A DNA stretch of 23,582 nucleotides from a bacterium (lineage in GTDB: Bacteria > DYJV01 > JALVYZ01). The DNA is taken from positions 1 to 23,582 of the forward strand of contig JALVYZ010000341.1 in assembly GCA_027037705.1 (NCBI GenBank). Reading direction: 5' to 3'. The stretch's first letter is position 1; every line of letters starts with the position of its first letter. Position numbers and translations under genes: made by a program. Shown here piece by piece: positions 4,388-23,582 of the stretch. The notes under the pieces were generated by a model, which saw nothing but the letters and a program-made list of their open reading frames with translations, was not told the origin of the DNA and made no database searches.

Positions 4388-4977
4388 TTAACTTTATCGC
4401 TATTACTTTCTAATTTTTTTAATAGATCGTCAATGGTCCCTTTTGATAATATTTGATTAAATTGTGATTTGTATGTTCTAATAATACTTACACCTTCAAT
4501 TTCTACATCATAAATTTTCCATCCTTTTTTAGATTTCCAGAACTTGAAAAGAGTTGAGTAATCTTTTCCTTCAGAGGTAAAAATAGCTGGAACAAAAATT
4601 ATTCTTTTTTTCTTCTGTATTGCAGGTTTAATTTTATAAGTAACTTCTTTTAAGGTTACTCTATCAAGATATACCATTCTTATTCTTTTTTTAAAAAGTT
4701 TTAAAAATTTTTCTTTTTGTTCAGGTGTCATTTTATTCCAGTATTTTCTACCTAAAGTAAGTCTTGCCATTATATTAAAATCAAAAAGAGGATTTACTAA
4801 TTCATAAATTCTATCTTTTTTTTCTTTTTCTGTAAGCTTTTTATCTTTTAAAATAGAGATTGCTTTTTGAGTTGTATTTTTTAAAAGATTTTCAACGAAA
4901 GATTTATCATCTGTTTGTGCATATAATGAAAAAGATAAAAAAAGAATCCAACAAATTAAAATTGTTATTTTTCTCAT
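4384..4977 (-). CDS. mlaC: MlaC-like periplasmic lipid-binding protein
   Basis: A 197-residue secreted protein with signal peptide (residues 1-20, cleavage likely after LYAQ). The mature part matches the MlaC/Ttg2D family: the segment NPLFDFNIMARLTLGRKYW followed by the helix TPEQKEKFLKLFKKRI, then beta strands ending in the typical W-x-I-Y-D-V-x-I-E-G-V-S motif. MlaC shuttles phospholipid across the periplasm. Here it sits between mlaA (3-bp gap) and an RND transporter gene (4-bp overlap) rather than next to mlaFEDB, and HpnM-type MlaC homologues are also known beside HpnN RND proteins. The family call is secure; the cargo is not. It has no strong Shine-Dalgarno of its own beyond weak A/G stretches, consistent with coupling to mlaA. 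Confidence 0.88.
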   Translation of the reverse strand: MRKITILICWILFLSFSLYAQTDDKSFVENLLKNTTQKAISILKDKKLTEKEKKDRIYELVNPLFDFNIMARLTLGRKYWNKMTPEQKEKFLKLFKKRIRMVYLDRVTLKEVTYKIKPAIQKKKRIIFVPAIFTSEGKDYSTLFKFWKSKKGWKIYDVEIEGVSIIRTYKSQFNQILSKGTIDDLLKKLESNSDKVK

Positions 4978-4980
4978 TTT

Positions 4981-5709
4981 TTACTCCTTAATTAATTTTA
5001 TCCTGTTTTGTTCATACATATCTCTAATGAATGAATAAAAATCAAGGGATTCTCTTCTAAATTTTTCGTATTCTCCTATATGTAAAGATGTATAGTTCAT
5101 TTTCTTAAATGTATATATAGCTCCTGCAATCCAGAGATTTGGTATATAACTTATTGGGTTTAAAAATAAATCTCCAACAAAGCCTATGGTGTCTCTGATA
5201 TTTGAAGGTCCAATAAATGGCCATTCAAGATGAATTGTATTATTCAAATGATAAAAACCTAATGTTTGTCCAAAGTCTTCATCATGAGGTTTTAAATGAA
5301 ATTTCCAATAAGCAACATCAGAGAAACCCACAACTCCAATGGTAGAATTTAAAATAAATCTTGCAGTTTCTATCCCAGCTCCTTTGAATTTAAATTGTAG
5401 AATATTATTGACAAATCTAATTGGAAAAAGTAAATTTTTAAAGAAATTATTAAACCAATGTCTTATTTTCTTGGGAAAAATTTTAGAGTATCCTTTTGCT
5501 GATGGTTCCAAAAACCATGTATAAACTTTGTCATTAAAAGCAAAAATACCTCTATTAAATGGCTGGAGAGGATCACAAACTATATATGATGTGTTTTGTT
5601 CAAATTGTTCTGAAATATCAGATGGGAAATTATCACTATCAGCAAATAAATTTAAATTAAACGATATTATTATAGTAATTATAAAAGGAATCACTTTAAA
5701 ATTTTTCAT
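4981..5709 (-). CDS. mlaA: MlaA/VacJ outer-membrane lipid protein, non-lipoprotein form
   Basis: A 242-residue protein of the MlaA (VacJ) family, which removes phospholipid from the outer leaflet of the outer membrane. Family motifs are visible: DPLQPFNRGIFAFND (residues 46-60), the amphipathic segment around FFKNLLFPIRFVNNILQ, and NSTIGVVGFSDVA. The N-terminus is a signal peptide (about 1-23) but has no lipobox cysteine, unlike the E. coli lipoprotein, so it is probably cleaved by signal peptidase I. A GGGAG Shine-Dalgarno precedes the ATG. It is the first gene of the mlaA-mlaC-RND operon. A few short overlapping frames on the plus strand here have no family content and are ignored. Confidence 0.9.
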   Translation of the reverse strand: MKNFKVIPFIITIIISFNLNLFADSDNFPSDISEQFEQNTSYIVCDPLQPFNRGIFAFNDKVYTWFLEPSAKGYSKIFPKKIRHWFNNFFKNLLFPIRFVNNILQFKFKGAGIETARFILNSTIGVVGFSDVAYWKFHLKPHDEDFGQTLGFYHLNNTIHLEWPFIGPSNIRDTIGFVGDLFLNPISYIPNLWIAGAIYTFKKMNYTSLHIGEYEKFRRESLDFYSFIRDMYEQNRIKLIKE

Positions 5710-13442: not shown

Positions 13443-13456
13443 TTTAAAATAAATTA

Positions 13457-13647
13457 AGTGTTAGTGTTGGTGTTAGTTTTTGTAATTTATAGTTATTAAT
13501 TGTAATTAAGTTATTAATAGTTATTCGTTGTGTGAGCAATTTTTCATTATTAATTATTCATTAATTTTATTTGCTCCCGACTCCGTACTCACCACTTTGT
13601 TAATCTCACTAACTTCAACTAACATTAACTAACCTCTAACTAACCTT
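13457..13647 (-). repeat. Short-tandem-repeat island B (ilvC-psd gap)
   Basis: Read on the minus strand (the direction of transcription), the gap between ilvC and psd holds GTTAG-rich degenerate repeats (13647-13598), CGGAGTCGGGAG, then AATGAAT/AATAATG words, then an AATAACT-type block, then AACACC AACACT AACACT hexamers. The part at 13477-13528 matches 23262-23313 (opposite strand) over 52 bp with only 3 differences, all transitions. No coding frame is evident. This is one of three related islands in the window. Confidence 0.85.
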
Positions 13648-13651
13648 TAAA

Positions 13652-22300: not shown

Positions 22301-22301
22301 T

Positions 22302-22382
22302 CTGGAGTGCGGAGTTGGGAGTCGAGAGTGATTTAATGAAAAATTCAAAAATAACACCAACACTATCACTATCACTAACACT
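22302..22382 (+). repeat. Short-tandem-repeat island C (SDR-dch gap)
   Basis: Directly after the SDR stop come heptamers GGAGTGC GGAGTTG GGAGTCG AGAGTGA (22304-22331), a short AT spacer with TTTAATGAA, then hexamers AACACC AACACT ATCACT ATCACT AACACT (22353-22382). A ribosome site AAAGGAGG and the dch ATG follow. It is a shortened version of islands A and B, with the same order of modules. Confidence 0.85.
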
Positions 22383-22403
22383 TTAACATAAAAGGAGGCA
22401 AAT

Positions 22404-23174
22404 ATGGCATATAAATTTATAAAAACTGAAGTAAAAGATAACGTAGGATATCTCATTATTAATAAACCCCCTTATAATGTTCTTGATATACCAACAATGA
22501 AAGAGATGAATGAGGCTCTTGATGAATTTAAAGATAGGGATGATTTGAATGTACTTGTTTTAACAGCAGAAGGAGATAAAGCTTTTTCAGCTGGTGTTGA
22601 TGTAGCAGACCACACAGAAGATAAAGTGGATGAGATGATTGAAGTTTTCCACGGAATTTTCAAGAGATTAAATGAAATTCCATATATAACAATAGCTGCT
22701 GTAAAAGGTGCTGCTCTTGGTGGTGGATGTGAAGTTGCAATTTTTTGTGATATGATTTTTGCTGCAGATAATATAAAAATTGGTCAACCTGAGATTCAGC
22801 TTGCAGTCTTTCCCCCAATAGCACTTTTAGTGTTGCCTAAAATTATTCCTACTAAAAAAGCTTTTGAAATGATTCTTGGTGGAGGAACTTTTAGGGCAGA
22901 AGAAGCATTAAATATTGGACTTGTTAATAAAATTGTAGAATTAGATAAATTTGATGAAGAATTAAATAATTTCTTAAAGCAATTTTCAAAATTAAGTAGA
23001 AGTGCTCTCAAAGTAACTAAGAAAGCGTTTAGAAAAGTGGGATTATTGGAGTTTGAAAAGGGATTACCTTTGATTGAAGATATTTATCTAAATGAACTGA
23101 TGAAGCTTGAAGATGCTCATGAAGGTTTAACATCATTTTTAGAAAAAAGAAAACCAGTTTGGAAGCATAAATAA
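22404..23174 (+). CDS. dch: Cyclohexa-1,5-diene-1-carbonyl-CoA hydratase
   Basis: A 256-residue enoyl-CoA hydratase family protein with the hallmarks of dienoyl-CoA hydratase (Dch/BamR) of the benzoyl-CoA pathway: PPYNVLDIPTMKEMNEALDEF, FSAGVDVADHTEDKV (61-75) instead of the usual FSAGADIxE, GAALGGGCEVAIFCDM (102-117) for the oxyanion hole, and IGQPEIQLAVFPP (126-138). It adds water to the cyclic dienoyl-CoA to give 6-hydroxycyclohex-1-ene-1-carbonyl-CoA. The next gene encodes the dehydrogenase for that product, which strongly supports the call. A GGAGG ribosome site precedes the ATG. Confidence 0.9.
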   Translation: MAYKFIKTEVKDNVGYLIINKPPYNVLDIPTMKEMNEALDEFKDRDDLNVLVLTAEGDKAFSAGVDVADHTEDKVDEMIEVFHGIFKRLNEIPYITIAAVKGAALGGGCEVAIFCDMIFAADNIKIGQPEIQLAVFPPIALLVLPKIIPTKKAFEMILGGGTFRAEEALNIGLVNKIVELDKFDEELNNFLKQFSKLSRSALKVTKKAFRKVGLLEFEKGLPLIEDIYLNELMKLEDAHEGLTSFLEKRKPVWKHK

Positions 23175-23181
23175 CCTGTCA

Positions 23182-23370
23182 GGAGTCTGGAGTGTGGAGT
23201 GCGGAGTCGGGAGTTATTTAATAATGAACAGTGAATAGTGAAAAATGAACAATGAATAACAACAAATAACTACTAATAACTTAATTACAATTAATAACTA
23301 TGAATTACAAAAAAATAACACTAACACCAATAATTAATAATTTAAAATTCAAAATCCAAAATTTAAAATT
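23182..23370 (+). repeat. Short-tandem-repeat island A (dch-had gap)
   Basis: The 218-bp gap holds, in order, five GGAGTNN heptamers (23182-23216), five AATGAAN/AGTGAAN heptamers (23223-23257), an AATAACT-type block (23262-23313), two AACACY hexamers (AACACT AACACC, about 23317-23328), and four TAAAATT/CAAAATY heptamers (23343-23370). The had ribosome site GGAGG follows. No coding frame is convincing. Confidence 0.87.
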
Positions 23371-23392
23371 ATTAAAAAAATGGAGGTAAATC

Positions 23393-23582
23393 ATGAGTTG
23401 TGGAAAAGAGCATAAAGTACCAGATAAAATTAAAACCTGGCAGATGGTTGAGCCTGGAAAGTTAGAATTAACAGAAATACCTGTTCCAGAATTGGGAGAT
23501 AATGATGTTTTAGTTGAAATCGCTGGTTGTGGTGTATGTCATACAGATCTTGGTTATTTTTATGATGGAGTCCCTACAGTTA
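23393..23582 (+). CDS. had: 6-hydroxycyclohex-1-ene-1-carbonyl-CoA dehydrogenase, N-terminal part
   Basis: The first 63 residues of a zinc-dependent medium-chain alcohol dehydrogenase, cut by the window edge. The segment WQMVEPGKLELTEIPVPELG and AGCGVCHTDLGYFYDGV (44-60), with Cys49 as the expected catalytic zinc ligand, match the Had/BamQ enzyme that oxidises the product of Dch to the 6-oxo compound. Starting at the ATG at 23393 is supported by a GGAGG ribosome site. The Cys-rich N-terminus MSCGK and the placement right after dch add support. Only a quarter of the protein is visible. Confidence 0.82.
   Translation, partial: MSCGKEHKVPDKIKTWQMVEPGKLELTEIPVPELGDNDVLVEIAGCGVCHTDLGYFYDGVPTV

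Follow-up and report, generated by a model that had tools for sequence, protein, structure and literature searches.

Oriented, multi-module repeat islands in spacers between co-directional genes of an AT-rich bacterium

The G-rich heptamers of Xanthomonas and Nostoc (GGGAATC / GGGGA(C/T)T) are preferentially present in four units, lie between aligned ORFs and are rare between divergent ones, and occupy either the sense strand within 50 bp of a stop codon or, ahead of an ORF, the antisense strand; their mean distance in Xanthomonas is 28 nt to the 5' neighbour and 160 nt to the 3' neighbour (PMC4692102). TAACTGA direct repeats occur in intergenic regions of marine Beggiatoaceae, Cyanobacteria and some Bacteroidetes, and a role at the RNA level has been proposed for them (PMC4679880). 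For cyanobacterial STRRs, such as that of hupS-hupL, transcript stability or translational coupling has been suggested, according to the summary in PMC2670836.

The islands described here belong to an AT-rich bacterium with a draft assembly of 2.05 Mb in 496 contigs (92.8% complete), of which the window, the whole stretch of 23,582 nucleotides that was analysed, is one contig. Like the Xanthomonas and Nostoc heptamers (PMC4692102), they show a four-unit preference, placement between aligned ORFs and a sense-strand position within 50 bp of the stop, their median distances being 10 nt from the 5' neighbour and 104 nt from the 3' neighbour. Unlike the consensus GGGNATC / GGGGA(C/T)T, however, their GGAGT core holds GG rather than GGG or GGGG and alternates with variable two-base spacers, it shares an ordered island with modules rich in A/T or in C, of which several likewise peak at four units, and the orientation is far more one-sided. 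The TAACTGA repeats resemble the islands in that they are heptamers between genes, are patchily distributed across phyla and, in Beggiatoaceae, follow the orientation of the downstream gene, but TAACTGA is a single uniform heptamer adjoining the start codon, with the Shine-Dalgarno sequence usually missing (PMC4679880), whereas the islands are made of other modules, carry GGAGT on the stop side and show an unchanged Shine-Dalgarno frequency. STRRs are also seven-base tandem repeats between genes, some of them in hairpins, a likeness that need not mean common descent; as they are described in PMC2670836, they have no ordered set of several modules. REPINs (PMC3116915) are likewise dispersed extragenic repeats and are partly hairpin-forming, as is a subset of the islands, but they are palindromic doublets rather than tandem arrays, and no RAYT was found in the genome at its 92.8% completeness.

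Three islands in the window

The earlier note on this DNA, made from the sequence alone, had reported repeat islands at three gene junctions, and direct reading of the sequence finds all three where it put them (Table 1). The module order that it gave (GGAGT, AATGAA, AATAAC, AACAC) is correct for the modules it named; two others had been overlooked, namely a GTTAG array of four units beside the ilvC stop (island A) and an AAAATTY array (island C). Its statement that GGAGT adjoins the upstream stop holds for islands B and C but not for A, where the GTTAG array comes first and GGAGT second. Similarly, the block shared by the long islands A and C does contain three transitions, but it measures 55 bp and not 52 bp.

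Table 1. Repeat islands of the window and the modules within them (positions are those of the window).
Feature	Position	Strand	Remark
Island A, entire ilvC-psd spacer	13443..13651	-	209 bp; 8 bp in same-order relative
Island A, GTTAG array, four units	13607..13645	-	begins 7 nt past ilvC stop
Island A, GGAGTNN array, three units, two degenerate	13573..13591	-	
Island A, AATGAAN block	13539..13562	-	
Island A, AATWAC period-10 block	13477..13531	-	55 bp common with island C, 3 transitions
Island A, AACACY hexamers, three units	13457..13476	-	near psd start
Island B, spacer from FabG-type SDR gene to enoyl-CoA-hydratase-family gene	22301..22403	+	
Island B, GGAGTNN array, four units (last is AGAGT)	22304..22329	+	begins 3 nt past stop
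Island B, one AATGAA unit	22335..22340	+	
Island B, ANCACY hexamers, five units	22353..22382	+	
Island B, Shine-Dalgarno AAGGAGG of downstream gene	22392..22398	+	outside repeats
Island C, spacer upstream of 6-hydroxycyclohex-1-ene-1-carbonyl-CoA dehydrogenase-like gene	23175..23392	+	gene cut by window end
Island C, GGAGTNN array, five units	23182..23214	+	spacers CT, GT, GC, CG
Island C, AATGAAN block	23222..23259	+	
Island C, AATWAC block	23259..23313	+	homologous to island A block 13531-13477 (-)
Island C, AACACY hexamers, two units	23317..23330	+	
Island C, AAAATTY heptamers	~23341..23370	+	between AACACY tract and start

Intrinsic terminators (a GC hairpin followed by a T run) are absent from the window's two island regions, and no Rfam covariance model matched the window at its gathering score. 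A promoter inside the islands was rejected too, with 0 candidates against 1.8 in shuffles for island A and 7 against 6.0 for B-C.

Two observations concern the genes themselves. There is no Shine-Dalgarno-like site near the psd ATG (13443-13460), and a relative with the same gene order, G001, has AGGAGT there; the real psd start may lie elsewhere, or translation may be initiated in another way. The gene group around islands B and C (22404-23582) resembles part of an anaerobic benzoyl-CoA pathway; matches to the gene after B include cyclohexa-1,5-dienecarbonyl-CoA hydratase, and the best match to the gene after C is 6-hydroxycyclohex-1-ene-1-carbonyl-CoA dehydrogenase.

Abundance, orientation and internal order across the draft genome

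The survey covered 493 kb of readable sequence from the 2.05-Mb draft, many of whose short contigs read entirely as N (e.g. C1, C3, C306-C308; L069, L070, L089-L091), which limits a whole-genome count; gene calls came from a simple ORF-length heuristic. Island A has about 70 BLAST matches in its own draft genome. As a general caution, matches between AT-rich repeats overstate homology. The pattern (GGAGTNN)x3, searched as GGAGTNNGGAGTNNGGAGT with at most two mismatches, has 151 matches in the genome and its reversed control has 2, and the tandem modules were each observed 7 to 65 times on the sense strand in spacers where dinucleotide shuffles of the same spacers give 0 to 0.4. The module pattern is well beyond chance.

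The ratio of sense to antisense modules in the 493-kb sample is 65:10 for GGAGT, 53:4 for AACACY, 35:2 for GTTAG, 27:4 for GAAGG and 22:2 for ACGCATNN. When co-directional, island-bearing spacers are counted instead, 57 of 65 have the sense orientation (p = 3e-10); of the other 8, which are antisense, several are arms of hairpins or else spacers that are long and complex. Islands occupy 66 of 138 co-directional spacers against 3 of 37 divergent ones (Fisher p = 4e-6). The number of modules per kb is highest in co-directional spacers (14.4), intermediate in convergent ones (4.0) and lowest in divergent ones (1.3); these densities are biased estimates because the sample is enriched for contigs with island matches (among about 78 kb of readable contigs chosen independently of matches, a core module was found in only 1 of 10). 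Choosing contigs by matches should not affect orientation or order. The earlier note's view that the three islands are aligned with transcription between co-directional genes thus extends from the window to the sample, at 57:8 and with clustering in co-directional spacers. Random orientation or position, or a lack of further copies, had been set beforehand as grounds for abandoning a family reading; on the sample that reading held, with dozens of copies. The genome carries a real, oriented, lineage-specific repeat system.

Along transcription the order of modules is near-strict: GAAGG, GTTAG or GGAGT come first, followed by AATGAAN, then AATWAC and finally AACACY or ACGCATNN. Counted in pairs, GGAGT precedes AACACY 10:0 and AATGAAN 7:0, AATGAAN precedes AACACY 7:0, and GTTAG precedes AACACY 9:1. 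The first G-rich module (GAAGG, GTTAG or GGAGT) starts a median of 10 nt past the stop, the same value as for GGAGT arrays taken separately, and the last C-rich module (AACACY or ACGCATNN) ends a median of 23 nt ahead of the next start. From one end of the island spacers to the other, G drops from 30% to 7% and C climbs from 9% to 20%, a gradient found neither in non-island spacers nor in those of G001.

Within arrays, a period of 7 is common to GGAGTNN, GAAGGNN and AATGAAN. Core columns are 93-100% conserved and the two-base spacers near-random, as judged from 45 middle units not constrained by the search pattern, and identical spacers are neighbours 5 times against 12.4 expected (p = 0.007), or 6 times against 11.6 expected (p = 0.03) in unique arrays only. 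Four is the commonest number of units in GGAGTNN, GTTAG, GAAGGNN, ANCACY and ACGCATNN, families with unit lengths of 6, 7, 7, 8 and about 10, and it is the number in 26 of 47 GGAGT arrays; common ancestry of the copies may account for part of this peak.

The islands fall into two structural subclasses, open islands and hairpin islands, the latter consisting of a GGAGT array followed by an ACTCC array, mostly with four units each. Hairpin islands fold strongly compared with shuffles (z about -3.6 to -10.8), whereas the folding of open islands, among them B and C, does not exceed that of shuffles and island A is intermediate (z -2.3). An RNA hairpin as a property of whole islands is therefore rejected, the exceptions being island A, to a moderate degree, and the GGAGT..ACTCC subclass. 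In the eight spacers with both a GGAGT and an ACTCC array, facing two-base spacers form Watson-Crick pairs in 4 of 23 cases against 3.7 expected, and the stems are thus regularly broken by small internal loops. ACTCC arrays in short spacers of the sample occur almost only with an upstream GGAGT array able to pair with them, and the hairpin subclass probably functions, or is tolerated, as an mRNA hairpin between cistrons. The sequence directly 3' of island hairpins elsewhere in the genome is mostly A-rich.

Genes adjacent to islands have a GC content at codon positions 1+2 of 0.378, compared with 0.343 in other genes of the same contigs (p = 2e-7), and their GC3 is slightly above that of those genes; this difference might fit conserved or highly expressed genes. 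By eye, an island of ACGCATNN and GGAGT lies beside a putative tRNA gene on contig C282 of G000 (about 4934-5026; L006).

Origin of the islands and competing explanations

The relative G001, whose IlvC is 80% identical, has spacers essentially without modules. Nine junctions were taken as orthologous, both flanking genes matching G001 at about 50% identity or above; at these G001 has no modules, and the island spacers measure 85-298 bp (median 96) against 8-87 bp (median 18) in G001, being longer in eight of the nine. The ilvC-psd junction of G001 is a compact TAG-AGGAGTAG-ATG with its own Shine-Dalgarno sequence, compared with 209 bp in the source genome. Because junctions in G001 are without modules and usually shorter, the islands are lineage-specific insertions or expansions. 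In 61 of 66 islands, at least 40 bp is common to another spacer, the blocks in common measuring about 40 to 140 bp; pair matches between spacers number 1118 on the same strand and 240 on the opposite strand, and five island copies can be aligned all the way between GGAGT and AACAC, over about 110 bp. From the long shared blocks and the five-copy alignment, it seems that whole composite blocks have been copied around the genome. Of the slippage plus copying proposed earlier, dispersal by copying gains support from the long blocks common to spacers, but simple slippage fits poorly, since the two-base spacers vary between neighbouring units, the cores are constant and unit number peaks at four.

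The explanation I favour, and would give slightly better than an even chance, is that the islands are lineage-specific, non-autonomous dispersed composite repeats that were inserted or grew in seemingly co-transcribed spacers. They are best read as a family of repeats that the genome tolerates, or makes use of, solely as transcribed operon spacer. Co-transcription and action in the RNA are suggested by gene layout only, and on the sequence an RNA-level role is plausible. New copies would come from copying between spacers, through short-homology recombination or template switching and not through a dedicated transposase; selection on the mRNA would maintain orientation and position, and the family would persist only where transcription crosses in one direction. 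In the sense orientation, the Shine-Dalgarno-like GGAGT tract at the upstream stop would be harmless and the G-poor A/C tract would run into the next ribosome-binding site. A flipped open island would instead place a free ACTCC (anti-Shine-Dalgarno-like) beside the GGAGG of the next gene and could mask it, and ACTCC arrays in short spacers would be locked in a hairpin by the upstream GGAGT array. This masking account draws on few antisense arrays, and alone it leaves the orientation of modules without Shine-Dalgarno likeness (AACACY, GTTAG) unexplained, their linkage to GGAGT being assumed. Shine-Dalgarno-like sites are present at 43 of 66 island genes and 46 of 72 non-island genes, an equal frequency in which no effect on translation is visible.

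Alternatively, the arrays might be sites for a multivalent factor, binding RNA or DNA, that recognises four evenly spaced cores in the manner of a regulon or of operon punctuation. Near-invariant cores with variable two-base spacers and a fixed period suit such a factor, as do the four-unit peak in five families of different unit length and the deficit of identical neighbouring spacers in unique arrays, and CsrA is encoded in the genome. CsrA sites carry GGA, but CsrA prefers the ANGGA form, which rarely arises from GGAGTNN, and a separate reader would be needed for each of several different cores; I consider this explanation unlikely.

It seems unlikely, too, that the islands are a neutral by-product in which polymerase slippage expands heptamer and related repeats in unconstrained sequence and the base composition of transcribed spacers produces the strand bias. 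Most of the genomes that Mrazek et al. surveyed, as cited in PMC4679880, have heptanucleotides as their commonest class of long repeat, and (GGAGTNN)x4 arrays are present in 23 of 386 surveyed genomes (about 6%). However, slippage yields identical units and steadily falling copy numbers, whereas here the units differ and peak at four; nor would it predict a fixed order of unrelated modules, and the G-to-C gradient is lacking in non-island spacers and in G001.

More doubtful still is an operon-punctuation code of about four copies of a conserved core at even spacing, with variable spacers, G-rich on the stop side and C-rich on the start side, that multivalent RNA-binding factors would read on the transcript under a four-unit rule independent of unit length and sequence.

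A folded DNA or RNA element at gene ends, either a G-quadruplex or an imperfect hairpin as considered for the Xanthomonas and Nostoc repeats, is decidedly improbable. It would account for the strongly folding hairpin subclass and for the intermediate z of island A, and the placement rule and four-unit preference match those in PMC4692102, but open islands fold no better than chance, GGAGT has GG tracts only, and the peak at four also occurs in AACACY and ACGCATNN, both without G tracts. A REPIN-like miniature element mobilised by a RAYT transposase, or one spread through reverse transcription, would agree with dispersed, lineage-specific copies missing at orthologous junctions of G001, but is highly improbable given that the available contigs of the 92.8% complete genome have no Y1_Tnp (RAYT) or RVT_1 (reverse transcriptase) match and that the five-copy alignment shows no constant ends.

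Two further candidates were rejected. The earlier suggestion of Shine-Dalgarno-like signals, in the version where GGAG and an ATG begin a mini-ORF through the A/C hexamers, is not supported, as the distance from the last GGAG to ATG is near random (5-12 nt in 6 of 30 cases against 2.8 expected), no open frame is kept, and the peptides are short and unrelated, with broken frames. Rho is encoded, but Rho loading does not choose an orientation, since the islands run G-first and C-last on both strands.

Distribution in other genomes and significance

In named genomes of other phyla, (GGAGTNN)x4 arrays obey a placement rule like that of Xanthomonas and Nostoc: for sixty intergenic arrays the median distance is 29 nt on the 5' side and 142 nt on the 3' side, and 48 of the 60 are nearer the 5' neighbour (p = 3e-6). 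GGAGTNN arrays of Cyanobacteria, Verrucomicrobiota, Prevotellaceae, Thermoanaerobaculales and Campylobacteraceae begin 0-10 nt from a gene end on the coding strand (e.g. L174, L175, L176, L198, L224), and this stop-proximal start in several phyla suggests a very general rule. Sharing of the whole grammar by other GGAGT-bearing genomes is rejected, the other modules being rarely near their GGAGT loci. AACACY arrays number 65 against 1 in the control in the source genome and show no clear excess over control in 15 other GGAGT-bearing genomes, and ACGCATNN arrays number 84 against 31 in the control in the source genome, with 3 in one other; among the 16 genomes tested, abundant arrays of both kinds are found in the source genome only.

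I found no published account of a multi-module grammar, and what appears to be new here is the ordered multi-module set, the one-sided orientation, the C-rich modules on the start side and a four-unit peak without G tracts. The heptamer spacer repeats of Xanthomonas, cyanobacteria and Beggiatoaceae have so far no agreed function. In the present case, one small genome holds several repeat families under a single rule of position, orientation and order, and the four-unit preference, earlier tied to G-quadruplexes, is found also in families without G tracts. The islands thus add to a class of spacer repeats in bacteria that is still poorly understood, and they weaken one explanation proposed for that class.
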